Shown here one piece after another: positions 8,589 to 52,143 of a stretch of 64,000 nucleotides of DNA; position 1 is the stretch's first letter, and each line of letters begins with the position of its first letter. Source of the stretch: Phenylobacterium sp. GTDB taxonomy: Bacteria > Pseudomonadota > Alphaproteobacteria > Caulobacterales > Caulobacteraceae. Under the pieces are notes generated by a model. It did no database searches, had not been told where the DNA came from, and saw only the letters and a list, made by a program, of their open reading frames with translations. Made by a program: the position numbers and the translations under genes. The stretch is from the NCBI RefSeq assembly GCF_025351295.1, contig NZ_JANXWD010000003.1:1-64000 (forward strand). Reading direction: 5' to 3'.

Positions 8589-10208
8589 CTAGCCCTCCGG
8601 CACGCCGTCGCCGGGACGGACCCGCAGGTGGTCGATCACCCGCCCCAGCAGGTCCGCGCAGTCGGGGCCCTGGACATAGGCTCGGAACAGGCGGTCCAGG
8701 CGGGCCACGTCCGGGCTGTCCGACCCGCGTACACGCACGGGGGCGCCGGCGCCGGGCGGCACGTCATAGAGTTGCAGGTCGCGCAGCTGAAACCAGGCCG
8801 AGGTCAGGTGCGCGCCGTCCCAGCGCGGCGCTTCGGCGCGCAGCAGGGGCGCCGTCGGCAAGATTGCCCCCGGCGCCATCCAGGCCAGGGGCTCCAGGTA
8901 TTCGACCGGCGGCCCACCGCGCGCGTGCGCCCACACCCTGGCAACGACGGCGCTGGCGCCCTCGCCCGCCAGGCTCGACGGTTCGAGCGCCAGATGCGCC
9001 AGCGCCGCCTCAAGGACAGCCACGACGCCGTCCAGCCCTGTCCCAGCGTCAGCGAGCGGGTCCGACGCGCCGCATCCGGGCGGGCTGATGACCACCACCA
9101 GGTCTTCGGGGTGCGCCGCGGCCTGGGCGGCGGCCAGGGCCTCCACGTCACCGGGCAGGCCCGGCAGGACGACCCGGACAGGACCCGTGGCGCGTCCCGT
9201 CATCCGCATGTGCAGCCACCCCTCGCCGACCGGAACGAACCGCGCCCCGGGTCGCGTCTGGGCCCCCGGCGGAGGTCCGGGCGCCGCGGCGTCGGGCGCG
9301 CGCCCCTTGGCAACGCCGTGGCGGATCGCTCCGGACCAGGCCGCCGCCGACTCGTCCAGCCAGACGATGTCCCAGCCCGGGCCTGGTTCCAGCCGGTCGA
9401 GATGGTCGGCGATGAGATCCGTCGGGCGGGCCATCACCGTCACGGGCGGCTTCAGGTCGCGCAGCACGGCGTTGGGCTGGAAGGCGGCGGCGCGGATATA
9501 GGCCTTGGCGTAGTGCGGGCCGGACTGAACGAAGCCCAGGGCGCTGCGCTGCAGCGGCTCCAGGTCCGATGGCGCGCGGCGCAGCCGCCGGGCCGGCGTG
9601 CGCTCGTACCAGGGAAACCAAGTGGAGTGGTCCTTGACCCGGGACCAGAGCCCCATGACGTGCCGACCGTCCCAGTCGGGGAGGTAGGGCGCGAGGTAGC
9701 GGGTGCGGAAGTCCTCCACCTCATCGTCGGTAAAGGCCGAAAGCCCGTCGAGGACCAGGGCGCTGACCCGGCCAGGCTCGCGCCGCGCGAACGCCGTGGC
9801 CAGGGCCGCGCCGGTGTGGGCGCCGTAGAACGCGGCCGTCCGGGCGCCCAGGGCGTCCAGGGTCGCGGCGATGGCGTCCAGGAACGCGTCCATCGCGGGA
9901 GCGTCGCCGAGCAGCGGGTCCGACAGTCCGTAGCCCGGCGTGTCCGGCGCAACGACCCGGTAGCGGCCGGCCAGCGCGTCGATCACCGGCAGCAAGGACA
10001 GGGATGATCGAGGCGATTCATGCAGCGCCAGCACCAGCGGGCCCTGGCCGGCGGCGCGATAGTGGAGGTCCCCATGGGGCAGGCGCAGATAGCCCCGTTC
10101 AACGGGCCGTGCGGCGGGATATCTGGGCTGCAGCACGGGGCGCAGGCTCTCCTCAAGGCTGACGGGCGCCCCCGCAAGGGAGCGCCCGACGGACCTTCGA
10201 TAGCGCAT
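8589..10208 (-). CDS. Tandem alpha/beta-hydrolase-like protein with noncanonical nucleophile elbow
   Basis: 539 aa; N-terminal domain [12 protein letters not shown]...[16 protein letters not shown]...[14 protein letters not shown]-terminal half has a second degenerate hydrolase-like fold ([11 protein letters not shown]...[15 protein letters not shown]...[11 protein letters not shown]). Confidence 0.8.
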
Positions 10209-18720: not shown

Positions 18721-19592
18721 AGGCCGAACACCTTCACGGCGTTGCCGCGCATGACCAGGTCGTAGGACGCGGGCCGCAGCCCGTGGTCGCGCATTTCGCG
18801 GACCGCCCGCTCGGGGTCGATGACCGGCCAGTCGGTGCCGAACAGCACCTTGTGGGCGCCGTAGGAGTCCATGTAGCGCACCAGGGTCGCCGGCAAGTGC
18901 TTGGGCGCGTAGGCGTCGATGCCGATGAAGACGTTCTCGTGCTTCCAGGCCATGGCGATCATCTCGTCGGTCCACGGCACGCCGACGTGGATGCCGATCA
19001 GCTTCAGATCGGGGAAGTCGATGGCGATCTGGTCCAGCAGGATCGGCCGCGCCACGCTGGGGAGGCGCACGGTCTTCTGGTAGATCAGGTTCTGGCCCAC
19101 CTGCATCATGATGGGCACGCCCAGTTCCACGCAGCGGGCGTAGTAGGGGTAGTAGAGCGCCGCATCCGGGGCCAGCTTGAACCAGTGCGGATAGAGGTGG
19201 GCCCCGACGAAGCCCAGGTCCCTCACCGCGTGGTCCAGTTCCTTCAGGCCCGCAACGCCGCGGAAGGGATCGACGCCGGCCAGGCCGGAGAAGCGGTCCG
19301 GATGCTTGCGGCACCATTGGGCGACCTGTTCGTAGGGGATCTCGAACGAACCGCGCATGTCGCGGTCGCCGGCGCGCACCGCGATCAGTAGCGACCGCTC
19401 GATGCCGGCGCGGTCCATCTTCTTCAGATAGTCGTCGATCGAGACGCCGGTCTTCATATGCTCCGCCATCCGCACCTGGGTGGTGAAGCTGGCGTCGAAG
19501 CCGGTCTGATGGTTGGCGACCTCGTGCGGCGTGAACAGGTTGACGACGATGTCGATCGCGCCGGTTCCCGATGCGGGAGCTTGGGAGGTCAT
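18717..19592 (-). CDS. Amidohydrolase family (amidohydro_2) protein
   Basis: 291 aa; GVHIGVPWTDEMIAMAWKHENVFIGIDAYAPKHLP...KVLFGTDWPVIDPERA. Confidence 0.88.
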   Translation of the reverse strand: MTSQAPASGTGAIDIVVNLFTPHEVANHQTGFDASFTTQVRMAEHMKTGVSIDDYLKKMDRAGIERSLLIAVRAGDRDMRGSFEIPYEQVAQWCRKHPDRFSGLAGVDPFRGVAGLKELDHAVRDLGFVGAHLYPHWFKLAPDAALYYPYYARCVELGVPIMMQVGQNLIYQKTVRLPSVARPILLDQIAIDFPDLKLIGIHVGVPWTDEMIAMAWKHENVFIGIDAYAPKHLPATLVRYMDSYGAHKVLFGTDWPVIDPERAVREMRDHGLRPASYDLVMRGNAVKVFGL

Positions 19593-21241
19593 TGGCCGGC
19601 CGGACCCCAGGACCGCGCGTCCGCAGGATCGCCCTTGCCCAGGTACTTCGCCACCACCGGGTAGGCGTAGACCGGCCGCGCGGTGTCGTAATAGTCGCGC
19701 GCCAGGGGGTGGCGGCCGAACTTCGAATAGGTCAGCCCGTAGTCCTCAAGACCCCGCGGCGTGGTCGGATAGGGCTTCACGGGCCGGTAGGCGATGACCT
19801 GGTCGGGCGCCTGGCCCTTCTCGACCCAGCCCTCGAGCGCGGTGATCCAGTCGATCTCGCCGCCGCCTTCGCCGCCGCGGCAATGGTTGATCGCCGGGGG
19901 CATGAAGAAGCGGAAGAACTGGCGGGTCGCGGCCTCGCCGCCGTTGGCCCGCTGGGCGGCCTGATAGTACTCGATCGACGCCTGGGCCGGGATGTTGTTG
20001 TCGTTCCAGCCGTGGAACAGGATCAGCTTGCCGCCTGCCCAGCGGAACCGGGAGAGGTCCGGATTGACCGGGTTCTGGATCACCCCCGGCATGTCAAGGC
20101 GCGCCGGATCGCGGTCATAGTCGAAATCGGTAAGACGGTAGGACCCGCCGGGCGATCGTTCGAACCCCATGAAGCCGGTGATCGAGGTTCCGTTCGGCCA
20201 GTGCTGACGGCCGTCGGCGCCGATGAACAGGGCCCATTGCTCTTCCGAGCCCCAGGGCATTCCGAAATACAGCTTCTCGCCCTTGGAATTGCGCGCGCCG
20301 TCGTGGAATTTCTGGACGACGTCGGCCTGTTCGCGCGTCAGGCAGAAGCCGGTCGCGGCCCCCGGCTTGCAGACGATCGTCTTCGGATCGAAGGCGCACG
20401 TCAGCGGGTTCTGAATCAGCCCGTCCTTAAGGCCGTCGATCTGGTCGCAGGCGCTCAGGACCGCCTTGTGCAGGTCCGGCAGCATCTCCCGGGTGAGAAT
20501 GCTGCGGCCGTCGCGCCCGGTGTTCACCAGGTTGTTCCATTCGAGGAAATAGGGCGTGTCCCCGATCTCGTCGTAGACCGGCGCCCCGGACAGGATGCCA
20601 TTGAAGTCGGTGGGGAACCGCTGAGCCTCGATCAGGGCCTGACGCCCCCCGGTCGAGCAGCCGACGAAGTAGTTGTAGCTGGCGGCGCGGCCGTAATAGT
20701 CGGCGACGATCTCCTTGGCGACCACCGCCGTCAGATGGGTCGCGCGGTAAGCGAAATCCGTCTGACCCTGCGGATTGTTGTAGGCGAACAGCCAGCCCGA
20801 ACCCTTGTGGCCCATGTCCGTGGTGACCACGGCGTAGTTGCGCACCAGGGCCTGGTCGATCCGGTCCTCCAGGTAGTTCCCGCAGGGACCGCCGCAGCCG
20901 CCCATCATGAACTTGCCGTTCCAGGCCCGGGTCGGCATGCGCAGGAGAAAGCCGATGGTGGGGGCGATCGTGCCCTCCACGCGGCAGATCTCCGGAAGAT
21001 CGTCGTCGGCGACGCCGTGCGTCCCGCCCGCCGGGATGACACGGGCCGAATTGATGCCGGTGGGGGCGTCGCGCAGCACGGCGTATTTCGCCGCTGCGGC
21101 TTCGCCCTGCAGGGCCAGGCAGCGCTCTACCGCCGTCGTCGCCATCGCCTTCGTGGCCGCGGGGAACGGTTGCGCATAGGCGCCTGGCGCGACCCCGGTG
21201 AAGCACGCCAAGGCGCCTGCGATGCGTCCAACCGTCCTCAT
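19589..21241 (-). CDS. Tannase/feruloyl esterase family protein (copy 1)
   Basis: Signal peptide from ATG at 21241 (MRTVGRIAGALACFTGVAPGAYAQ), GCSTGGRQALIEAQRFP nucleophile, C-terminal PPAINHCRGG. Confidence 0.92.
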   Translation of the reverse strand: MRTVGRIAGALACFTGVAPGAYAQPFPAATKAMATTAVERCLALQGEAAAAKYAVLRDAPTGINSARVIPAGGTHGVADDDLPEICRVEGTIAPTIGFLLRMPTRAWNGKFMMGGCGGPCGNYLEDRIDQALVRNYAVVTTDMGHKGSGWLFAYNNPQGQTDFAYRATHLTAVVAKEIVADYYGRAASYNYFVGCSTGGRQALIEAQRFPTDFNGILSGAPVYDEIGDTPYFLEWNNLVNTGRDGRSILTREMLPDLHKAVLSACDQIDGLKDGLIQNPLTCAFDPKTIVCKPGAATGFCLTREQADVVQKFHDGARNSKGEKLYFGMPWGSEEQWALFIGADGRQHWPNGTSITGFMGFERSPGGSYRLTDFDYDRDPARLDMPGVIQNPVNPDLSRFRWAGGKLILFHGWNDNNIPAQASIEYYQAAQRANGGEAATRQFFRFFMPPAINHCRGGEGGGEIDWITALEGWVEKGQAPDQVIAYRPVKPYPTTPRGLEDYGLTYSKFGRHPLARDYYDTARPVYAYPVVAKYLGKGDPADARSWGPAGQ

Positions 21242-21266
21242 GACACCTCCAGCGCGGCCGGACGGC

Positions 21267-21295
21267 ACTAGACTTCCGGCCATCTGCGTTGTCAA
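21267..21295 (-). promoter_or_regulatory. Predicted promoter of the tannase operon: TTGACA (21290-21295) N17 TCTAGT (21267-21272), minus strand
   Basis: -35 consensus with exact 17-bp spacer, then a GGAGG Shine-Dalgarno before ATG 21241. Confidence 0.55.
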
Positions 21296-28507: not shown

Positions 28508-29128
28508 ATGATCACTCTCTTCACCGGCCCGACCGGCAATGGCTACCGGGCGTCGATCCTGCTGGAAGAACTCGGGTTGGCCTATGTGGCGCGGGCCATC
28601 GACCTGCAGGCGGGCGCCGCCAGGCCGGCCGCGTTCCTGGCCGCCAGCCCCCTGGGCAAGATCCCGGCGATCGTCGACGACGACACCGCCGATGGCGCGC
28701 CGATCGCCCTGGCCGAGAGCCTGGCGATCGCCCTTTATCTCGTGGAGAAGACCGGCCGGCTATCGCCCGCCACCCCCGCCAAGCGGGCGCGGGCCTGGGA
28801 ATGGGCGGCCATCGTGGCCTCCGGATTCGGCGCGGCGTTTCCAGGGATATTCTTCGCCCGCCAGCTGGACGAGGCCAGCCATGGCAAGGTGATCGCCCGG
28901 CATTTCGAGGAGCTGGATCGCGGCTTCGCAGCCATGGATTCGAACCTCGCGGCCAGGCCCTTCCTGGCGGGCGACTCGTTCAGCTTCGCCGACGCCCTGG
29001 CGGCGCCACTTCTGCCGACCGCCCGGGCCTTTGGCGTTGATCTCTCACGGTTCCCCAACGTCGAACGCTGGGGCCAGGTCGTCCACGCACGGCCGGCGGT
29101 GCAGCGCGGCATGGCGGTCAAGGGCTGA
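28508..29128 (+). CDS. Glutathione S-transferase family protein
   Basis: 206 aa; MITLFTGPTGNGYRASILLEELGLAY, GKIPAIVDDD, GDSFSFADALAAP. Confidence 0.92.
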   Translation: MITLFTGPTGNGYRASILLEELGLAYVARAIDLQAGAARPAAFLAASPLGKIPAIVDDDTADGAPIALAESLAIALYLVEKTGRLSPATPAKRARAWEWAAIVASGFGAAFPGIFFARQLDEASHGKVIARHFEELDRGFAAMDSNLAARPFLAGDSFSFADALAAPLLPTARAFGVDLSRFPNVERWGQVVHARPAVQRGMAVKG

Positions 29129-30719
29129 CGGGCGGCGACGTCGCCACCCAGCTTGACGCCAGGTTCGGATCGCCGCGACCGGCGTAGACGGCCCGCCTGG
29201 GATAGGCGAAGTGCGGCCGGCTGAACGCGACCTGGTCGGGACGCACGAGCTTGAAGTCGATGCGGAAAAAGTCCAGCGGCGACCCCGGCCTGGGATGGAT
29301 GCCGATCAGCGGGTCGGGCGCCTCGCGCCGCTCCACCCAGGCTTCGAGCGCGGCCAGGTAGTCGATGCCGTAAGCGCCCTCCCCGCCGCTGCAATGGTTC
29401 ATCCCCGGGACCATGAAGAAGCGGAAGAACCCCGTGGTCGCCTCCGGGCCGCCCATCGTGCGCGTCGCCAGTTCGTAATAGTCGACCGCGTTCAACGGCA
29501 CGATCGACTGGTCGGCCCAGCCCTGCGCCATGATCAGCTTGCCGCCAGCGGCCTTGAACTTGCGCAGGTCCGGGTTGGAGGCGGAGTAGATCGCTTCCAT
29601 CAGCCCCACGCGCTTCGGGTCGCGGTCGAAATCGAAGTCGGTGATCTGCCAGCTCGGTCCCGGGTCGGGGGAAAAGCCCATGTAGCGCCAGAGCTCGGCC
29701 TGCATGTCGGCGTAGATCGCCGGCGCGCCGTCCTTGGAGATATAGGGGCCGATCCAGTTCAGCTCCGAACCGGGCATGGCGCCGCCGGTGTAGAGGGCGC
29801 GGCCCTTGGAATCGTGGGGGCCGGCGTAGATCTTGCGCCCCACCGCCACCTGCGGCCCGGTCAGGCAGTCGGCGCGATCGGGGCCGGCGCACTGCAGGAC
29901 GCCCGGGTCGAAGTGGCAGGCCCGCGGGTCGCCGATCACGCCATCGGCCGCCCCGTCCGTCAGGTCGCAGGCCTTGATCGCTGCGGCGTGCAACAGGGGA
30001 ACCTTCGCCGCCGTGAGGATCTCGCCGCCGTCGGGGGCCCGATTGACCACCGTCGACCAGACCAGCTGGATGCTGGCGCCCGTCTCGTCGAGCACGGGGG
30101 CGATGGCCACGATGCCGTCGAAGTCGTCCGGGAACCTCTGGGCCTCGACCATGCCCTGCCGCCCGCCGGTGGAGCAGGCCATGAAGTAGCTGTAGCGCGG
30201 CGCCTGGCCGTAGAAGGCCGCGGTGATCGCCTTGCCCGCGAGGGTCGAGACATGGGTGGCGCGGTAGCCGAAATCGACCTCGGCCTGCAGGTTGTTGTAG
30301 GCCCATTTGCCGTCATACATCGTCGAGCGGTGGCCCATGTCGCTGTGCAGGCAGGCATAGCCGTCGCGGATGTGCTGGGGACAGGCCAGGTCCATCGCCA
30401 CCGACCCGCAGAACCCGCCGCAACCTCGGACGATGTACTTGCCGTTCCAGTTCTGGACCGGCAGCCACAGCCCGAAGCCGACGCTGGGCGCAACATAGCC
30501 CTCGATCGCGCAATAGGCCGGCCGCCCGGCCGTGGCGGCCACATAGTCGGCCTTGAGGATGTGGGTGGGCGCATCGAGCAGGTTGGAGAACGCACCCCCC
30601 GCCAGGGCGGCGCAGCGCGCAGCGGGATCGGCGGGCGGCCTACCGTCCATGGCGGCGGCCGGGCTGGCCAGCCCCAGCGTCGCGAACAGGATCATCAGCA
30701 CCGTCAGCCGACCGATCAT
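29118..30719 (-). CDS. Tannase/feruloyl esterase family protein (copy 2)
   Basis: From ATG 30719: signal peptide MIGRLTVLMILFATLGLASPAAAM; ACSTGGRQGMVEAQRFP; VPGMNHCSGGEG. Confidence 0.9.
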   Translation of the reverse strand: MIGRLTVLMILFATLGLASPAAAMDGRPPADPAARCAALAGGAFSNLLDAPTHILKADYVAATAGRPAYCAIEGYVAPSVGFGLWLPVQNWNGKYIVRGCGGFCGSVAMDLACPQHIRDGYACLHSDMGHRSTMYDGKWAYNNLQAEVDFGYRATHVSTLAGKAITAAFYGQAPRYSYFMACSTGGRQGMVEAQRFPDDFDGIVAIAPVLDETGASIQLVWSTVVNRAPDGGEILTAAKVPLLHAAAIKACDLTDGAADGVIGDPRACHFDPGVLQCAGPDRADCLTGPQVAVGRKIYAGPHDSKGRALYTGGAMPGSELNWIGPYISKDGAPAIYADMQAELWRYMGFSPDPGPSWQITDFDFDRDPKRVGLMEAIYSASNPDLRKFKAAGGKLIMAQGWADQSIVPLNAVDYYELATRTMGGPEATTGFFRFFMVPGMNHCSGGEGAYGIDYLAALEAWVERREAPDPLIGIHPRPGSPLDFFRIDFKLVRPDQVAFSRPHFAYPRRAVYAGRGDPNLASSWVATSPPVSP

Positions 30720-30926
30720 CGCCGGATCTCCCAACCCCAGGGTCGCGCGGGAACGCCCTGGCCGGAGCGCCGCAGGAGACGCTACCGCGGCGACCCGGCC
30801 GTCCGCAGTGACAGAAGGTGCGGCTCGCATGCGGCGCGCGCATGGCCTCGACGCGCGCCGCCTGCCCGCAGGGTCACCCTCTATGAGTATTCCGCGATTC
30901 TGCCCGTTCCCGGCCGTGACTAAGCC

Positions 30927-31901
30927 TTGGCCTGCGCCCCCTCGCCCCACGGCCGGTCGGCGCCATGCGTCAAGGGAGTCGGGCTTTTGGAGAACTGGGT
31001 CGCCCTGGAGAACCTGGCGGGCATCGGTCGCGTCACCTGTGGGTGGAAGCGACCGGAACTGTCGCTCGACGCGGTTCGCCCGTACTGGCGCGACGCGCAC
31101 AGTCCGGCCATCGCCCGGCGCCACGGGGTCTACGAATATCGGCACTACGCGCTCGACCCGGTGGAGCCGGACCTGTTCGCCGCGATCGAGGGCGTCGAGC
31201 GCGCGCCGCCCGCCGACCAGCAGCTGATGTGGCTATCGGACGTCCGCTACCGCGACCAGGCCGGCCTCGACGCCTTCGGCGCCTCGCCCGGGCCGCAGGT
31301 CAAGGCGCAGATCCTGGCCGACATCGAGATGATCGTCGACAAGAGCACGACCTATCTGGTGCTCGGCGACAACGGCCGCACGCTGGTCGACAGTTCAGGC
31401 GATCCCGCCCCGGCCGGGCCGGCGGCGCACAGCTACGGCGTGTTCCTGAAGCAGCGGGGCGACGAGGCGGGCTTCCGCGCCCATGTCAGGGCGATGGCGG
31501 CGCGATGGGCGGCGGGTCCGGGTGTCCGCCGGCTGCGCCTGAACCTGTTCGAGGTTCCCGACATGGACGCCGAGCGCAAGGCCGGTTATCCCGTCAAGAC
31601 CCATCCCCCGGAGATGCAGTACCAGGCCTGGATCGACCTGGCCCTGGCCGGTCCCGAGGCGGCGCGCGGCCTGATGTCGCCGGCGGACGGGCTGGATCAC
31701 GCCGGCCACCTGCGGGCCGTGCACGCCTATCCGGCCCCGGCCGTCTACACCTTCAACTGCGCGGGTCGCCCGACCCTGGCCGGGTTGCGGGGCTATCCTG
31801 CCATGGCGGCGATCCGCGGACTGGACGCCGGGCACCAGCGCGACCCGGGCCTGCTCCGGTGGATGTACGGCGACGTCGCCCCGCTGGAAGGCGTCCGGTG
31901 A
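30927..31901 (+). CDS. EthD/dimeric alpha-beta barrel-like protein, apparently with two repeats
   Basis: ELSLDAVRPYWRDAHSPAIARRHGVYEYRHY... and second half HSYGVFLKQRGDEAGFRAHVRAMAARWAAGPGVRRLRLNLFEV. True start uncertain. Confidence 0.65.
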   Translation: MACAPSPHGRSAPCVKGVGLLENWVALENLAGIGRVTCGWKRPELSLDAVRPYWRDAHSPAIARRHGVYEYRHYALDPVEPDLFAAIEGVERAPPADQQLMWLSDVRYRDQAGLDAFGASPGPQVKAQILADIEMIVDKSTTYLVLGDNGRTLVDSSGDPAPAGPAAHSYGVFLKQRGDEAGFRAHVRAMAARWAAGPGVRRLRLNLFEVPDMDAERKAGYPVKTHPPEMQYQAWIDLALAGPEAARGLMSPADGLDHAGHLRAVHAYPAPAVYTFNCAGRPTLAGLRGYPAMAAIRGLDAGHQRDPGLLRWMYGDVAPLEGVR

Positions 31902-33288: not shown

Positions 33289-34098
33289 ATGCCGCTCGTC
33301 AACCTCCAGGCCGCCGGTGAGACCATCTGGTTCAAGACCACCGGCTCGGGCCCGCCGCTGCTGCAGATCCACGGCTCGGCGTTCGGCCACCGCAACTTCG
33401 AGAAGATGACGCCGCTGATGGCCGAGCACTTCGCGGTGATCGACTTCGACCTGCCCGGATACGGCGAGAGCCAGGGCAGGCCGCGCGACAGCATGGAGGG
33501 CATCGCCGACCAGGTGTTCGAATTCATGCACGCGGCGGGGCTGGGCAAGGTCAACCTGCACGGCACCTCCTTCGGCGCGATGATCGGCCTGACCCTGGCG
33601 GCGCGGCATCCGGAGGTCATCGAGCATCTGGTGCTCAGCTGCTTCCTGGCGCGCTACGACAACGCCGCGCGGCAGATGCGGGCCACCTGGAAACGCGCGG
33701 CCCTGGAGAGCGGAATGGAAGCCGTCGCCGACCTGACCTCGGTGGCGGGGTTCGCGCGCGGGTTCTACGACCGGCCGGGCGCCGAGGCGCAACTGGCCGC
33801 CATGCGCGTAGCCTTCTCGAAGAATACGCCCCAGGCCTTCATCGCCGGCACCGAGACCATCGAGCGCACCGATCTCAGCGCGTACGCGCCGCAGGTCACC
33901 GCGCCGACCCTGCTGCTGGCCGGCCAGGAGGACAACATGACCCCGTTCAAGCCGGCCGACAGTGGCGTCGGCTTCTCGCAGATCGAGACCCTGATGCCGA
34001 CCGCCCGCCTCACCGTGCTGCCGGAATGCGGGCACTATCTGGTGATCGAACAGCCCGAGCTGGCGGCCGAGGCGATCGTGGCCTTCATCGGACGCTAG
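33289..34098 (+). CDS. Alpha/beta hydrolase (canonical GTSFG nucleophile elbow)
   Basis: 269 aa; PLLQIHGSAFGHRNFEKM, NLHGTSFGAMIGL, LPECGHYLVIEQPE. Confidence 0.92.
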   Translation: MPLVNLQAAGETIWFKTTGSGPPLLQIHGSAFGHRNFEKMTPLMAEHFAVIDFDLPGYGESQGRPRDSMEGIADQVFEFMHAAGLGKVNLHGTSFGAMIGLTLAARHPEVIEHLVLSCFLARYDNAARQMRATWKRAALESGMEAVADLTSVAGFARGFYDRPGAEAQLAAMRVAFSKNTPQAFIAGTETIERTDLSAYAPQVTAPTLLLAGQEDNMTPFKPADSGVGFSQIETLMPTARLTVLPECGHYLVIEQPELAAEAIVAFIGR

Positions 34099-37294: not shown

Positions 37295-38155
37295 ATGAGC
37301 GAGACGATCGCAAGACCCGACACCCAGGACCTGATGGTCCCCGGCCCCATCGGCCGTCTGGCGGTGCGCACCAAGGGCCTCGCGGCCCGGCCGGCCCAGG
37401 TGGTGGTGATGGTCCAGGGTTCCAACCTCACCGGCCAGGCGATCTTCGACCTCTCCTTTCCGGGCGGGAAGGACTACTCGCTGATGGACGCCATCGTCGG
37501 CCTTGGCTACGGCGCGGTCACCTTCTCCGTACGCGGCTACGGCAATTCAGAGGCTCCGGAGGACGGCTTCAGCGTCACCACCGAGGCGGCCATGGAGGAC
37601 CTGGACGCGGTGATGGACTGGGTCGCCGCCCAGGGCTATCGCCGCCCGCACCTGCTGGGGTTCTCCTGGGGCGGCCGGATCGCCGGGCGCTATGTGGAGA
37701 CCCACGGCGAGCGGGTGGACCGGCTGGTGCTCTACGACCCGGCGCGCGGCGGCGGAAACCTGGTCCTGCCGGCCCCCACCGAGCCGTGGTGGACCAACAC
37801 CTACCAGCATTACAATGAAAAGCTGGAGCCGGACTTCACCGATCCGGCGGTGCGCCACGCCATCGGCCAGCTGGTCAGCACGACCGAAGCCCGCTCCCCG
37901 AACGGCATCCGCCTGGAGAACGCGCGGCCCTTCCCCGCCATCGATCCCAGCCGGATCCAGCGACCGACCCTGCTGATCTATGGTGTGGAGGCCGCCAAGG
38001 CCAACTACATGCAGGGCGGGGTCCCGCGCGGCCAGTTCTTCGAGGACCTGGCGACCGACGACAAGGCCTTGGTGATCATCCCGGGGGGCGGCGATTTCGC
38101 CCATTTCCAGCAGTCCCGCTACCGCCTCTACAAGGCGATCGGCGACTTCCTGTAG
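37295..38155 (+). CDS. Alpha/beta hydrolase (canonical GFSWG nucleophile elbow)
   Basis: 286 aa; RPHLLGFSWGGRIAGRYVETHGERVDRLVLYDPA. Confidence 0.9.
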   Translation: MSETIARPDTQDLMVPGPIGRLAVRTKGLAARPAQVVVMVQGSNLTGQAIFDLSFPGGKDYSLMDAIVGLGYGAVTFSVRGYGNSEAPEDGFSVTTEAAMEDLDAVMDWVAAQGYRRPHLLGFSWGGRIAGRYVETHGERVDRLVLYDPARGGGNLVLPAPTEPWWTNTYQHYNEKLEPDFTDPAVRHAIGQLVSTTEARSPNGIRLENARPFPAIDPSRIQRPTLLIYGVEAAKANYMQGGVPRGQFFEDLATDDKALVIIPGGGDFAHFQQSRYRLYKAIGDFL

Positions 38156-41911: not shown

Positions 41912-43659
41912 GACTTCGCCGGCGTTTCCTGCAGGTCGGGTCGCGACGCGTCCACTATCTGCGCGCCGGCGGCGGCCCGCCCGCGGTCATGGTCCATTCG
42001 TCACCCGCCAACGCCTGGTTCCTGCGCCCGGAGATCGAGCGGCTGTCGCGGGACTACACCGTCTTCGCCTTCGACACGCCGGGCTTCGGGCTGTCGCAGG
42101 CGCTGCCGCTGGAAGACATGCTGGTGGCCGACCTCGCAGACGCCCTGGATGAGACGCTGACGGCGATCGGCATGCCGCCCTGCCCGGTGTTCGGCTCGCA
42201 CAGCGGCGCGGCCATCGCCCTCGAGTTCGGCGTCAGGCATCCCGAGCGGGTGACCGGCCTGGTGCTCGACGGCGTGCCGGCCTTCAGCGACGCGGAATGT
42301 GCGGCGCTGTTCGAGGACTATTTCCACAAGTTTCCGGTGAGCGACCTTGGCGGACACTATTCCGACGTCTGGACCCGGTTCCGCGACCAGGCGGCCTGGT
42401 TTCCCTGGAGCGCACGGGCGCCCCAGAGCCTCAATGGCTACGACCTCAGCCGGCCGGACGCGACCCACCTGTGGGTGTCGATGTATTTCGAGGCGGCGGA
42501 CACCTACATCCCCGCCTATCGCGCGGCCAGCCACTATGGCGCGCGCGCCCTGGCCGCGGCCGCCGAGCTGGATCGCCCGGCGATCTACACCGCCACCGAC
42601 ACCGACATGCTGTTCCCGCATCTGGCGCGGCTGCCGCCCTTGAAGCCGGGGCAGGAGATCCGGCGGATCGGGACCTCGCTGCCGGCCAAGCATGACCTGA
42701 TCGCCGAGGGCTTCGCCCGGTTCGGCAGCCCGCACCCGCCGCCTGACGACTGCGACGGCGTGGGCGACGCCGCCGCCGTGGCCCGCCAGTTCCTCGACGG
42801 CGAAGACGGTCGCCAGGTTCACATCCGCTATGCCGGCCGCCGCGCACATCCGGCCGTGCTGCTGCTGCATGACGGTCCCGGATCGGCCGAGGCGTTCGAG
42901 CCGCTGATGGCGGCGCTGAGCGACCGCTATTTCGTGATCGCGCCGGATCTGCCGGGGGCCGGGGAGTCCGATCCGTTCCAGGGCGGACCGCCGGCGCTGG
43001 GCCAGTTCGCCGGCGAGGCGGCGTGGTTGCTGCAGGCCCTGGGCGCTCCGCCGGCGCAGGTCTACGGCCTGGGCTTCGGCGCCTCGGTCGCGGTCGAGCT
43101 GGGGCGCAGCCGGCCGGACCTGGTGGCGGGTGTCGTCCTGGGCGGCCTGCTGGCGGCCGATGCCCTGGAACGCGCCCGGCTGGCGGCCGACTACACGCCG
43201 GACATCGCCGTCGAGCCGGATGGCGCCCACTGGTATCGCACCTGGCTGATGCTGCGCGACGGCCTCGTCTGGTGGCCCTGGTACGACCGACGGCAAGCCG
43301 CCCAACGCGCCGCCGCCGGGGACTTCGGAGCGGCGCGCCTACACCGCCGCACGATGGACGTGATGCGCCGCCGCGAAACCTACGGCCACCTGGCGCAGGC
43401 GGCGCTTGGCTTCGATGCGATGGCCGCCCTGGCGAGCCTCAGGGTTCCCGTCTGCCGGCTGTCCGGCGCGCCGACGCCGCTCGACGCCTTCGATGGATGG
43501 CTCGCCACCCACGCGCCGCAGCTGCCCGCCCGGCCGGCCGGGGTCGGCGCCGGCGAGGCGGACGCCCTGGCGAAAGCCTTCGATCACCTGCACCTGCTCG
43601 CAAAGACAACAGAGGGGCTATCATGCGAACCACCGCGCGCGCACTCACCGTCGGCCTAG
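41908..43659 (+). CDS. Tandem alpha/beta-hydrolase-like protein; N-terminal elbow GSHSG, C-terminal elbow GLGFG
   Basis: TTG start overlapping the upstream TGA (TTGA). Two consecutive folds: VMVHSSPANAW..FDTPGFGLSQ..VFGSHSGAAIALEFG and VLLLHDGPGSAEAFEPL..APDLPGAGESDP..VYGLGFGASVAVELG. Confidence 0.85.
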   Translation: MRLRRRFLQVGSRRVHYLRAGGGPPAVMVHSSPANAWFLRPEIERLSRDYTVFAFDTPGFGLSQALPLEDMLVADLADALDETLTAIGMPPCPVFGSHSGAAIALEFGVRHPERVTGLVLDGVPAFSDAECAALFEDYFHKFPVSDLGGHYSDVWTRFRDQAAWFPWSARAPQSLNGYDLSRPDATHLWVSMYFEAADTYIPAYRAASHYGARALAAAAELDRPAIYTATDTDMLFPHLARLPPLKPGQEIRRIGTSLPAKHDLIAEGFARFGSPHPPPDDCDGVGDAAAVARQFLDGEDGRQVHIRYAGRRAHPAVLLLHDGPGSAEAFEPLMAALSDRYFVIAPDLPGAGESDPFQGGPPALGQFAGEAAWLLQALGAPPAQVYGLGFGASVAVELGRSRPDLVAGVVLGGLLAADALERARLAADYTPDIAVEPDGAHWYRTWLMLRDGLVWWPWYDRRQAAQRAAAGDFGAARLHRRTMDVMRRRETYGHLAQAALGFDAMAALASLRVPVCRLSGAPTPLDAFDGWLATHAPQLPARPAGVGAGEADALAKAFDHLHLLAKTTEGLSCEPPRAHSPSA

Positions 43660-44117
43660 TCTCGTCGGCCGCCCTCCTCGCGGCGAACGCGTCGACCGCG
43701 GCGGCGGCGGTCTGCCCGCCCACCACGGTCTTCAACACCGGGCTCAAGCAGCTGGATGGCTATCGGGTGTTCACCGGCCCGGACGGCGACTCCCAGGTCG
43801 AGCCGCTGCATATCGAAGCCAGGCAGGTCCCGCTGCTGAAGACCGGCAAGCTGCTGGGGATGATCGAACTGCCGAACTCGCCCAAGCGCGGCGCGGAGAT
43901 CGTGATCGGCCCGCCCGACGTGGACCTGCCCATGCACGCCGCCCCCTACCGCGAGATGTTCATCCTGCTGGGCGGTTCGGTCACCTTCCAGACCGCCAAG
44001 TTCAAGGCGGAGATGAAGCCCGGCTCGGTGTTGCTGTTCGAGGATGTGGACGCCAAGACCGGCCACGGTGGCCGCACCGGGCCCTGCGGCTACATATCCC
44101 TGTCGATCGCCCCCTGA
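43623..44117 (+). CDS. Secreted cupin-like protein
   Basis: Signal peptide MRTTARALTVGLVSSAALLAANASTAAAA; cupin pattern LPMHAAPYREMFILLGGSVTF...KPGSVLLFEDVDAKTGHGGR. Confidence 0.75.
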   Translation: MRTTARALTVGLVSSAALLAANASTAAAAVCPPTTVFNTGLKQLDGYRVFTGPDGDSQVEPLHIEARQVPLLKTGKLLGMIELPNSPKRGAEIVIGPPDVDLPMHAAPYREMFILLGGSVTFQTAKFKAEMKPGSVLLFEDVDAKTGHGGRTGPCGYISLSIAP

Positions 44118-47530: not shown

Positions 47531-48349
47531 CTAGGGGGCGGCCGGCGCCCTCAGGAATTCGTCCATGATCGTGGCCAGTTCGTCCGCCGCCACGTCGAAG
47601 ATGCCGTTCTCCAGATGCGGCATCTCCAGCAGCCGGCCGTTGGCGAGCGCGCCGGCGGCGCGGCGCGAGGCTTCGGCCAGGTGGTTGCGTGGGTTGATCA
47701 CCAGGGTCGGCTGCCGCACGCCGCCGAAGCAGTCGGCCACATCGAAGGTAAAGGCCGCCTCGTGGGCCCACCATCCCCGCGGGTAGGCGCGAAGCTCGTC
47801 GACGAAGTTGTCGAACCCGCGCGCCAGGCTGACGCCGGGCGCGCGGCGGGTGATGAAATAGTCCCACCGGTGCTGGAACTGCGCGAAATCCTCGCTGAGC
47901 CACGTCGGTTCGGCGAGCCGGACGCGCCAGGCCTCGCGCTCGGCGCCCAGGAAGTAGGGCACGCCGATCAGGATCAGCCGCGACACCTTGTCGGGACGCT
48001 GCCGGGCCAGCTCCGCCGCCACCAGGGCCCCGGTGTGATAGCCGAACAGGTCGACGCTGCCCGCCTCCGCCTCGTCGAAGGCCACCGCGATGGCGCGTGC
48101 GTAGCCCTCGATCGGCATCGGCTGCGGCGGGGGATCCGAGGCCCCGTAGCCCGGCGCATCGACCGCCACCACCCGCCGTCGCGGCGCCATAGCCTCTAGA
48201 AAGGGCGTGAAGCTGCGTCCCGAATAGGCCGTGGCGTGCAGACACCACAGGGGTCGCCCCCCGCTGCCTTCAAGAAGGATGCCGCCTTCGAGAAGGTGAA
48301 TCTGCTGTCCCGGCGGGCCGACATAGCGACCGGCAAGCCCGGCGTTCAC
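47531..48349 (-). CDS. Alpha/beta-hydrolase-like protein with GYHTG elbow
   Basis: 272 aa; PLWCLHATAYSGRSFTPFLEAM, VAVDAPGYGASDPP, VDLFGYHTGALVAAELARQRPDKVSRLILIGVPYF. Confidence 0.85.
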   Translation of the reverse strand: MNAGLAGRYVGPPGQQIHLLEGGILLEGSGGRPLWCLHATAYSGRSFTPFLEAMAPRRRVVAVDAPGYGASDPPPQPMPIEGYARAIAVAFDEAEAGSVDLFGYHTGALVAAELARQRPDKVSRLILIGVPYFLGAEREAWRVRLAEPTWLSEDFAQFQHRWDYFITRRAPGVSLARGFDNFVDELRAYPRGWWAHEAAFTFDVADCFGGVRQPTLVINPRNHLAEASRRAAGALANGRLLEMPHLENGIFDVAADELATIMDEFLRAPAAP

Positions 48350-48553
48350 GGGCGGGCCACGCTCAAGGCCGCGTGGGGACCTGCACGGTCATTGATCTCG
48401 AGGTTCGCGGAACGCGGCATGCCTACCGCCTAACAGCGCGCCCGACGCCCAGGCATCCGGTTTAAGTCATAGGCCGGCGCCGAAAAATCATGCCGGATCG
48501 CCGTGCTCCACGAGCAATCTAGCCGTGGGCAGGCCTGCCCACGCGTCGGGTTT

Positions 48554-48576
48554 CCCAGCCGCCGGCGGCGGCTGGG
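48554..48576. repeat. Perfect 10-bp hairpin CCCAGCCGCC-GGC-GGCGGCTGGG in the leader of tannase copy 3
   Basis: Read directly; no T-tract follows on either strand. Confidence 0.6.
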
Positions 48577-48631
48577 CATGGCGACAATGGGTCGAGGCGG
48601 AACCGCCGACGGTCAGAACAGGGGCGCGCGC

Positions 48632-50320
48632 ATGCATCGGAACCAGGTCTCGTCGTCCCGTTCGGCGCCGGTCATGGCGGCGCGAACGCTGGGCGCCCTG
48701 CTCGCCTCGGCGGCCGTGCTCGGTCCGGCGGTCGGTTGGGCCCAGACCACCCCGCCAGCCCCCAAGCCGGCGCCGGCGGCGGACGCGGCTTGTGCGGCGT
48801 TGCGGCCGACCCAGACGTTCTCGGACGTGGCCAACCGGCTGGCGCAGATCCCCGATGCGCCGACCAGCATCGTGTCGGCGCGGATCGTTCCGGCCGAGCG
48901 GGGCCTGCCGGAATACTGCCGCGTCGAAGGCCAGATCGCCCCCACCATCGGGTTCCTGCTGAAGCTGCCGACCAGCGGCTGGAACGGCAAGCTGATGATG
49001 GGCGGCTGCGGCGGGCCCTGCGGCCAGTACCTCAGCGACCGGCTCGATCCCGCCTTCGCGCGGCGCTACGCGGTGGTCTCGACCGATATGGGGCACAAGG
49101 GAATCGGCTGGGCGTTCGCCTACCAGAACCTGCAGGGGCAGATCGACTTCGGGTCGCGCGCCACCCACCTCACCGCCGTCGCGGCCAAGGAGATCATCGA
49201 CCTCTACTACGCCCGGCCCGCCAGCCTGGCCTACTTCAACGGCTGCTCGACCGGCGGCCGCCAGGGCATGGTGGAGGCCCAGCGGTTCCCCGAAGACTTC
49301 AACGGCATCATCGCCGGCGCTCCGCCCTATTTCGAGACCGGCGACACGCCGTTGTTCCTGTCCTGGGGCGCACGGGCGAACCTGGACGCGGACGGCAAGC
49401 CGATCCTGGACGCTGCCAAGCTGCCGCTGATCCATGAGGCGGTCCTGGCGGCGTGCGATCCCGGCAAGGGCGCGAAGGGCGGCATGCTGCTCAATCCGGC
49501 TGCCTGCGCCTGGGACCCGGCGTCGCTGGCCTGCAAGCCCGGCCAGGCGGCCGACGCCTGCCTCTCGGCGGCCGAGGTCGGGGTGGTGCGGAAGATCTAT
49601 GCCGGAGCGACGAACGCGAAGGGCCGCGCCCTCTACTTCGGCATGCCGCGCGGATCGGAACTGAACTGGGCCCCGGGCTTCGTCAACAGCGAGGGCCGAC
49701 CTGGGGACTATCTCTCCGGGTTCGGCGGCGCCGGCAATTCGCTGATGACCTACGGCGCGTTCTTCTATTCGCCGGGCCCGAAATATTCCGAACGCGACTT
49801 CGACTACGACCGCGACGTGCCTCGCCTGGCGGTCATCGAGGCGCTGTACAACGCCCAGAATCCCGATCTTCGCGCCTTCCGCGACGCGGGCGGCAAGCTG
49901 ATCCTGTACCATGGCTGGAACGACAACCAGATTCCGGCCGGCGCCAGCGTCGACTACTACGAAACCGCGACCCGCACCGCCGGCGGACCGGCGGCGACCC
50001 GCGCGTTCTTCCGGCTGTTCCTGCTGCCGGGCGTAGGCCACTGCCGCGGCGGTCCCGGCGGCAGCGAGGTGGACTGGATCTCCGCGCTCGAAGGCTGGGT
50101 CGAGAAGGGCGTCGCGCCGGACCAGGTGGTCGCCAATCGGATGAAGACCGAGCCCTTCCCCACGGTCGAGGTGGCGCCGGGCGAGACGGTCATCCAGTTT
50201 CCGCGCCATCCCCTCGACCCGTCGACGGTGACCAGTTCGCGGGTGGTGCTCGCCTATGCCGTGAGCCCGCCGCCGGCCGGGACGGCGACCGCGAAGCCCG
50301 CCAAGGGCGCGGCGCGTTGA
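48632..50320 (+). CDS. Tannase/feruloyl esterase family protein (copy 3)
   Basis: From ATG 48632: signal region; RVEGQIAPTIGFLLKLPTSGWNGKLMMGGCGGPCG, GCSTGGRQGMVEAQRFP, PGVGHCRGGPGG. Confidence 0.92.
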   Translation: MHRNQVSSSRSAPVMAARTLGALLASAAVLGPAVGWAQTTPPAPKPAPAADAACAALRPTQTFSDVANRLAQIPDAPTSIVSARIVPAERGLPEYCRVEGQIAPTIGFLLKLPTSGWNGKLMMGGCGGPCGQYLSDRLDPAFARRYAVVSTDMGHKGIGWAFAYQNLQGQIDFGSRATHLTAVAAKEIIDLYYARPASLAYFNGCSTGGRQGMVEAQRFPEDFNGIIAGAPPYFETGDTPLFLSWGARANLDADGKPILDAAKLPLIHEAVLAACDPGKGAKGGMLLNPAACAWDPASLACKPGQAADACLSAAEVGVVRKIYAGATNAKGRALYFGMPRGSELNWAPGFVNSEGRPGDYLSGFGGAGNSLMTYGAFFYSPGPKYSERDFDYDRDVPRLAVIEALYNAQNPDLRAFRDAGGKLILYHGWNDNQIPAGASVDYYETATRTAGGPAATRAFFRLFLLPGVGHCRGGPGGSEVDWISALEGWVEKGVAPDQVVANRMKTEPFPTVEVAPGETVIQFPRHPLDPSTVTSSRVVLAYAVSPPPAGTATAKPAKGAAR

Positions 50321-52143
50321 ACCGGCTCGTGACGGCCCTGAGGCTGCTGGCGGCGATCCTCGGCGGCCTGCTGGCCAGCGCGGCGTCCGCCGCGCCCGCG
50401 CCGCGCGACATCAACATCCAGATCATCGGGCTGCCGTCCGATCCTCCGGGGCGAACGCTGCTGGCGCCCGGCGGCGGGCGCGACCTGTCGCCGGCCATCC
50501 TGTTCACGCCCGCCGCCGGCCCGAATGTCTACGGCCCGGCGATCGTCATGCTGTCCACCGGCCCCGGGTCGAACCCCGGCCGCAGCGACGAGCCGTCGCG
50601 GTTCGCCGCCGAGCGCCTGGCACGGCGCGGCTACACTGTGCTCAGCCTCTATTCCCACCTGGAACGCGGCTATCCGCTGAACCGCTTCGAACAAACGCGC
50701 TACGACATCTCCGCGGCGCTGGACCTGCTGGAACGCATGGGGTTCGAGGACCTGGTGCTGGCCGGCCGCGGCTACGGCGCCATCGCGGCCGCCAACTACC
50801 TGGCTGAATCGGACGACGCCGCCCTGGCCACGCCCGATCGCCGGCGGGTGCGCGCCGCGGTGCTCATCGACCCGCTGACCGACGTGCGCGCCTTCGTGAG
50901 CTCCGGACTCTCAGGCCCCGACTACGACGCCAAGGTCGCCCAGGCGCGGGTGGACGTGGCGGCCGGGCGGGGGCTGATCCCCGGCGTGGTCGAGCCCGGC
51001 TACCATCCGCCCGAGCACGACGCGCCCTGGGTGGTCGCCGGCCGCTATGCGATGCCGGCCGAGGCGTTCCTGAACTATTTCGGGCCGGAGGCGCAGGCCC
51101 GCAACCTCTCCGCCCTGTCGCGGATTCCGATCCCCACACTGGGCCTGGTCAGCGCCGGCGATCCCTCGTCGTCGACCACGGTGCTGAAGGACCTGAAGCC
51201 GGCCAGGCCGGGGACGTTGGCGATCCAGTCAGAGCCGGCGGGCGACTTCGACACGCCCGCCGTGCAGGACCGGCTGACCGACGACCTGGCGGCCTGGCTG
51301 GCGAAACAGGGCCTGGGCGTGCGCCCGGCGGTCCGGACCAGCTTCGCCAGCATCCGGGCGGCGGACGGCCAGATCTTCACCGGCGTCCTCTACGCGCCCA
51401 TGGACGGCGGCAAGGACCGGCCGGCGTTCATCCTGCACCACGGGCTCAGCGAGGATACGATCCACTCCTCGACCCACTGGCTCGGCTGGCGGCTGGCCCA
51501 GGCGGGCTACGCCTCGCTGTCGGTGGCCAACCATTCCAGCGGCGTGACCGGCGCGACCATGACCGGCACCCTGGCGGAGGTGGCCGACGACACCGGCCGA
51601 TGGGCCGACTGGCTCGCCGCGCAGGGCTATCCCAGGCTGATCCTGCAGGGCCATTCCAACGGCGGGGTCCTGATCTCGAACTACATGAGCCTGACCCACG
51701 ACCGGCGCGTGGTCGGCATGGTCTACATGGCCCCCACCCTCGACACGCCGCGGTTCGCCCGCGAGACCCTGGGCGCGGCCGTCTATGCCCAGCAGGTGGA
51801 CGAGGCCAAGGCGGCGATCGCCCGCGGCGAAGGCGACACCCACCTGATGACCCAGGACAAGCTGCGCTTCGCCCGGCGGTTCCTGGACACCTCCGGGCCG
51901 GACTCGCGCGCCACCCATACCGAGCGGATCAAGGAGTTCGATACGCCGATGCTGGTGATCGCCGGCGCTGCGGACCCGCTGATGACCCGCGACCCGACGT
52001 TCATCGAGAGCTTCGTAAGGAACCATCCCGGACCGTCAGAGGTCCATTGGTACGAGGGCGGCAGCCACGGGATGAAGGAATCCAAGGACCGCGTGCGCGA
52101 CGACATCGTGGCCTGGACGCGCAAGATGTTCGGGGCGCGCTGA
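50317..52143 (+). CDS. Tandem alpha/beta-hydrolase protein: degenerate N-terminal domain (GRGYG), canonical C-terminal domain (GHSNG); exported
   Basis: TTG start overlapping upstream TGA; signal peptide LNRLVTALRLLAAILGGLLASAASAAPA; VLAGRGYGAIAAANYLAES and ILQGHSNGGVLISNYMS. Confidence 0.82.
   Translation: MNRLVTALRLLAAILGGLLASAASAAPAPRDINIQIIGLPSDPPGRTLLAPGGGRDLSPAILFTPAAGPNVYGPAIVMLSTGPGSNPGRSDEPSRFAAERLARRGYTVLSLYSHLERGYPLNRFEQTRYDISAALDLLERMGFEDLVLAGRGYGAIAAANYLAESDDAALATPDRRRVRAAVLIDPLTDVRAFVSSGLSGPDYDAKVAQARVDVAAGRGLIPGVVEPGYHPPEHDAPWVVAGRYAMPAEAFLNYFGPEAQARNLSALSRIPIPTLGLVSAGDPSSSTTVLKDLKPARPGTLAIQSEPAGDFDTPAVQDRLTDDLAAWLAKQGLGVRPAVRTSFASIRAADGQIFTGVLYAPMDGGKDRPAFILHHGLSEDTIHSSTHWLGWRLAQAGYASLSVANHSSGVTGATMTGTLAEVADDTGRWADWLAAQGYPRLILQGHSNGGVLISNYMSLTHDRRVVGMVYMAPTLDTPRFARETLGAAVYAQQVDEAKAAIARGEGDTHLMTQDKLRFARRFLDTSGPDSRATHTERIKEFDTPMLVIAGAADPLMTRDPTFIESFVRNHPGPSEVHWYEGGSHGMKESKDRVRDDIVAWTRKMFGAR

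Follow-up and report, generated by a model that had tools for sequence, protein, structure and literature searches.

We describe a family of alpha/beta-hydrolase-fold (ABH) proteins in which the nucleophile of the elbow (Ser, Cys or Asp), treated as diagnostic in one of the best-studied enzyme folds, is replaced by His. The replacement is a family trait: using a profile rebuilt after masking of the elbow and acid columns, to avoid circularity, we found His at the nucleophile column in 167 of the 187 domains with scores of 150 bits or higher, Ser in one, and Asp or Cys in none; because loci were picked by similarity to His-elbow seeds, this fraction describes this family and not ABH proteins at large. 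Three members, designated P1, P2 and P3, are encoded in the window, the whole 64,000-nucleotide stretch of Phenylobacterium sp. DNA that was analysed. The conservation of His at the usual Ser site suggests a chemistry different from that of related hydrolases on a very common fold. We propose, with a probability of about 0.5, that the elbow His and the acid after strand beta7 would constitute a nucleophile-free general base acting on the products of partner oxidases, with paired domains in P2 and P3 and a weak or divergent version in P1.

The elbow in the three window proteins

P1 (47531..48349, minus strand) is a single-domain His-elbow protein of 272 aa, with a GTG start and a Pfam match to Abhydrolase_1 (6.7e-12); its elbow, GYHTG (48029..48043, minus strand), comprises residues 103-107 and has His105 at the nucleophile position. 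P2 (8589..10208, minus strand; 539 aa) and P3 (41908..43659, plus strand; about 583 aa) extend beyond what the first-pass annotation had seen, each consisting of two fused abhydrolase domains. P2 combines an N-terminal domain with the elbow GAHTG (9810..9824, minus strand), containing His131, and a degenerate C-terminal domain with the elbow GEGAS (8952..8966, minus strand), where Gly occupies the nucleophile position. In P3, whose TTG start was deduced from an ortholog (see below) and from its overlap with the preceding gene, the N-terminal elbow is GSHSG (42193..42207, plus strand; position assigned by alignment), which is kept in the ortholog, and the C-terminal elbow is GLGFG (43066..43080, plus strand), with Gly at the nucleophile position and reading GVGFG in the ortholog. 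No elbow of these proteins thus has Ser, Cys or Asp at its third position. The three His elbows, which the first-pass annotation had located correctly, are in frame within long ORFs matching Abhydrolase_1, and the loops that it described as preserved are indeed present, as LHATA, LHESP and VHSSP after beta3 and as DAPGYG, DTPGYG and DTPGFG. The window also contains, as had been noted, ordinary Ser proteins, with GTSFG at 33562 and GFSWG at 37658. A Pfam Ndr match to P3 (5.4e-7) is located on its His domain and is a superfamily cross-match.

AlphaFold2 models built with family alignments for P1 (pLDDT 94.4, pTM 0.93) and P2 (pLDDT 83, pTM 0.86) show the eight-stranded ABH fold with its beta5-elbow-helix C arrangement, in agreement with Foldseek and with Pfam matches above cut-off. 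In P1, beta5 spans residues 99-104 and helix C starts at residue 106, indicating that His105 is the elbow residue; in P2, beta5 (125-130) is followed by His131 and then by a helix (132-143). The profile-PDB alignment places the His column on the Ser of Est1, so that models and alignment give a positive answer to the question, raised earlier, whether His superposes on the nucleophile. They also rule out the contrary possibility that had been raised, a shifted elbow with a Ser nucleophile elsewhere, as no conventional Ser elbow occurs at any other place. Foldseek retrieved canonical ABH enzymes only, many of them at TM 0.7-0.8. There is no solved chain within the family, the best profile matches to the PDB being generic esterases near 1e-25, and no NCBIfam equivalog (BchO, PcaD, BioH and others) scored above its curated cut-off (for example, 81.9 against 172.6 for BchO).

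The remaining triad residues, whose retention had been left as a question, are kept only in part. An acid follows beta7 in the N-terminal domains of P2 (Asp264) and P3, P1 having Asn at this site, and the catalytic His after beta8 is absent from P1 and from both N-terminal domains. The beta7 region of P1 is R221-N222-H223-L224 (47678..47689, minus strand); the acid site is Ser in its ortholog, and a conserved His follows in both (RNHL and NSHL). P1 is therefore without the beta7 acid as well as the post-beta8 His.

Conservation and subfamilies

The proportion of His at the nucleophile column also disposes of the concern that homologs might mostly have Ser. The other non-His elbow residues among the 187 domains were Ala, Gly, Trp, Gln, Asn, Lys and Phe, and the non-His domains were mostly C-terminal halves of tandem proteins. 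Several positions distinguished His domains from non-His relatives: Thr or Ser adjacent to the elbow His (164/167 vs 8/35), His18 (158/167 vs 20/35), His38 (162/167 vs 25/35), Asp or Glu after beta7 (158/167 vs 17/35) and the post-beta8 His (45/167, about a quarter, vs 0/35), although these contrasts are not phylogenetically independent because there are few elbow changes on the tree. The post-beta8 loop is deleted in many His domains, and a cap motif (Gly155, His157 and Trp162) occurs at about equal frequency in both sets. Joint loss of the acid and the elbow His was not significant (about seven elbow changes, with three to four supported independent pairs), these events being too few to tell whether the two were lost together independently of phylogeny.

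We found one close relative of P1, 68% identical, in an alphaproteobacterial MAG (locus L086; JANYET010000013.1). Its neighbors are of the same kind as in the window: a P3 ortholog, a cupin-like protein, MFS, LysR, tannase, IclR, an FAD monooxygenase and ALDH. GYHTG is kept in this P1 ortholog, and all aligned relatives in the His clade have His. Comparison with the L086 orthologs yielded dN/dS values of about 0.28 for P1 and 0.32 for P3, and both genes are under purifying selection. The first-pass annotation had viewed the three proteins as a distinct subfamily rather than decay; conservation and a dN/dS of about 0.3 exclude decay or pseudogenes, and His as a family trait stands, but the three proteins do not form one subfamily.

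Indeed, the tree assigns the three loci to two subfamilies. P1 lies within a starred clade of 47 rows with GYHTG, GFHTG and GDHTG types, and the N-terminal domains of P2 and P3 belong to another starred set of 60 rows; P1 groups with single-domain or His-His tandem proteins, whereas P2 and P3 are a His domain plus a Gly-elbow domain. In a quick tree with moderate support, the degenerate C-terminal domains mostly cluster beside GTHTG single-domain proteins, while the His-His tandems of one alphaproteobacterial family (f31, see below) fall inside the P1-type clade, indicating that the tandem architecture probably arose at least twice. The motif W.R.[KR]D...WFPW, which had been noticed in two members, is present in P2 and P3 and absent from P1. 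It had been suggested as a mark of GxH[ST]G homologs, a role that we discard, since its RD...P[WFY] core also occurs in 21 of 31 degenerate C-terminal domains without His; it is a cap motif found in both His and non-His domains.

Two of the degenerate C-terminal domains have Ser elbows, ATSFA (L007:19968-21689) and GASVG (L146:3939-5651), and sit inside a clade of Gly, Trp and Gln elbows; TomTYG65, very similar to pJE1 in this region, has Gly (ATGFA) where the pJE1 domain has Ser. The window itself encodes a further tandem abhydrolase-like protein (50374-52143, plus strand), with GRGYG (Gly at the nucleophile position) in its first half and a canonical GHSNG in its second, which is the only half matched by Pfam.

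A candidate active site and its alternatives

In the proposed mechanism, the catalytic His would in effect have been relocated to the nucleophile elbow, where it would hydrogen-bond the beta7 acid to form a His-Asp dyad serving as general base and acid, and no covalent acyl-enzyme would be formed. Proton abstraction could then lead to C-C cleavage, hydration or isomerization of substrates that would probably be products of a partner flavin oxidase, in pathways degrading aromatics or other complex natural compounds; in P2 and P3, one His domain would be coupled with a degenerate partner domain. The elbow side chain lies near the usual place of the triad His, from which we infer that it is geometrically reasonable for the elbow imidazole to reach the beta7 acid. 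This geometry, together with the conserved pair of elbow His and beta7 acid and with nucleophile-free precedents among ABH proteins, favors the general-base reading. Asn or Ser at the acid position means that a His-acid dyad as stated does not apply to P1, whose activity is less certain with the acid lost; the active-dyad reading is thus weaker for P1 than for P2 and P3, and P1 would be a divergent or weak version.

The precedents are the cofactor-free dioxygenases HOD, QDO and AqdC, which work without a nucleophile through a His-Asp dyad whose His lies on the post-beta8 loop, and in which the elbow Ser is dispensable, AqdC having Ala at the elbow (PMC10548524), and the methylketone synthase MKS1, a non-hydrolytic ABH-fold enzyme without the canonical triad that relies on a His base and a neighboring Thr (PMC10548524). 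Our proposal shares with the dioxygenases, whose characteristic reaction is the O2-dependent cleavage of 3-hydroxy-4-quinolones, a nucleophile-free His-acid pair in the same fold, but with the conserved His located on the elbow; a dyad His on the post-beta8 loop was not found in the His domains of the window proteins. Unlike MKS1, with its one His base plus Thr, the family has His on the elbow and keeps the beta7 Asp or Glu in most members. Canonical Ser hydrolases (Est1, 6eb3; aryl esterase, 1va4; enol-lactonase, 2xua) have the same fold and elbow geometry, the LH.SP.S-type loop after beta3, the D.PG.G.S motif and, as in most members, the beta7 acid, whereas the family differs from them in the elbow His, in the frequent absence of the post-beta8 His and in matching only generic Pfam models above cut-off. 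Proteins of the NDRG family (Pfam Ndr) have Gly at the nucleophile position, as do the second domains of P2 and P3, although the degenerate domains described here are fused to a His domain.

That these folds are catalytically dead and serve to bind ligands, as chaperones or as sensors, their His being a binding residue, seems unlikely to us for the family, although it is the strongest rival for P1, where beta7 acid and post-beta8 His are both missing; degenerate C-terminal domains with Gly, Trp, Gln or Ala elbows are, moreover, common. Against it, the His-Thr pair is absolutely conserved and the acid nearly so in deeply diverged His domains, the genes lie in metabolic operons, and P1 and P3 are under purifying selection. 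The near invariance of the adjacent Thr or Ser in His domains, and its loss from most non-His domains, would also fit hydrolases using this Thr (GxH-T-G) as the nucleophile and the elbow His as its base. We consider this improbable, because the residue following the nucleophile normally contributes to the oxyanion hole through its backbone NH and is the first of helix C, making it a poor nucleophile site, and because locus L075 has Ala there.

A metal site formed by His105 of the elbow, His38 and possibly His18 plus the beta7 acid would account for the far higher conservation of His18, His38 and Asp222 in His than in non-His domains. Yet ordinary Ser members, too, have His38 (in the LH.SP or HG loop) and an H-Y in beta2, neither of which binds metal in them, and His38 is kept in 25 of the 35 non-His domains, so that we give this explanation very little weight. 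Lowest in our ranking is a covalent role for the elbow His itself, replacing Ser through an acyl-imidazole intermediate: His does take the nucleophile's place in an elbow that is ordinary in other respects, but the literature searched offers no precedent for this in the fold, and the post-beta8 base that would activate His or water is often absent.

Returning to the general-base reading, we tentatively suggest, at somewhat less than even odds, a large undescribed family in which the triad His is relocated to the elbow and forms a nucleophile-free His-Asp site, with up to 73 domains per genome in one alphaproteobacterial family and frequent coupling to flavin oxidases. The fold is known, but we found no library entry, and no open paper among those searched, for a broad family that regularly has a His elbow together with rearranged acid and base residues; likewise, searches of the open literature, a scope outside which most subscription journals fall, returned nothing on a GxH[ST]G-type motif or a Ser-to-His replacement in this fold. 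Annotation pipelines label such proteins 'hydrolase', which may mislead. If active, they would provide a new active-site layout and a directly testable set of catabolic enzymes.

Distribution and genomic context

Whole-genome searches detected relatives in 30 of 385 Alphaproteobacteria genomes, in 13 of 399 Pseudomonadota genomes, where several of the weakest matches are ordinary Ser proteins, and in 6 of 321 genomes of another proteobacterial class; a Streptomyces plasmid carries a relative with GHHTG. The family is thus spread over several groups of Proteobacteria and also present in Streptomyces, keeping the elbow His with the rest of the triad reorganized. In the alphaproteobacterial family f31, all ten genomes searched contain 9-73 His-elbow-type domains each, a very large lineage-specific expansion. 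Its loci (L040-L050 and L133-L149; genomes G307, G177, G482, G405 and G1188-G1193) hold many two-domain proteins in arrays, which adjoin flavin monooxygenases, including group-D and luciferase-like ones; GC content is 31% at one locus and 62-66% at others.

Outside f31, the commonest neighbor is a VAO/PCMH-type FAD_binding_4 oxidoreductase, found at 13 of 41 family loci; with 5-12 VAO-type genes per genome, chance would place one in a few percent of 10-kb stretches, a level estimated from gene counts and not from a control experiment. The VAO-type gene is often directly adjacent to the His-elbow gene and on the same strand, as in the window, where it lies directly upstream of P3 (40253..41911, plus strand; PF01565, 2.7e-33). 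Directly after P3 is a gene for a small cupin-like protein (43656-44117, plus strand) that has no Pfam match and whose product is probably secreted; in L086, a counterpart likewise adjoins the P3 ortholog.

The window is a catabolic region, encoding LeuC (aconitase family), a PEP-mutase/ICL-type lyase, hydantoinase A/B, an isochorismatase, a Rieske oxygenase, an amidohydrolase, a TonB receptor, MFS and IclR regulators. Three tannase/feruloyl-esterase-family genes occur within 31 kb (19589-21295, minus strand; 29118-31145, minus strand; 48503-50320, plus strand), which suggests a polyphenol or aryl-ester catabolic island. Overlapping modules are found on related plasmid loci of Sphingomonas JE1, Sphingobium TomTYG65, Azospirillum lipoferum and Comamonas. 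Our literature search found nothing on plasmid pJE1. The loci on pJE1 (L007) and pTomTYG65b (L008), and in part L083 and L085, have a common catabolic module, comprising LeuCD, a PEP-mutase/ICL lyase, an isochorismatase, two polysaccharide-deacetylase-like proteins, HMG-CoA lyase and hydantoinases. Speculatively, it could encode a route that yields an alkylmalate by way of a substituted maleimide or maleamate; its starting compound might be a pyrrole-type pigment, a REDY/HapK-like protein being encoded near this module.
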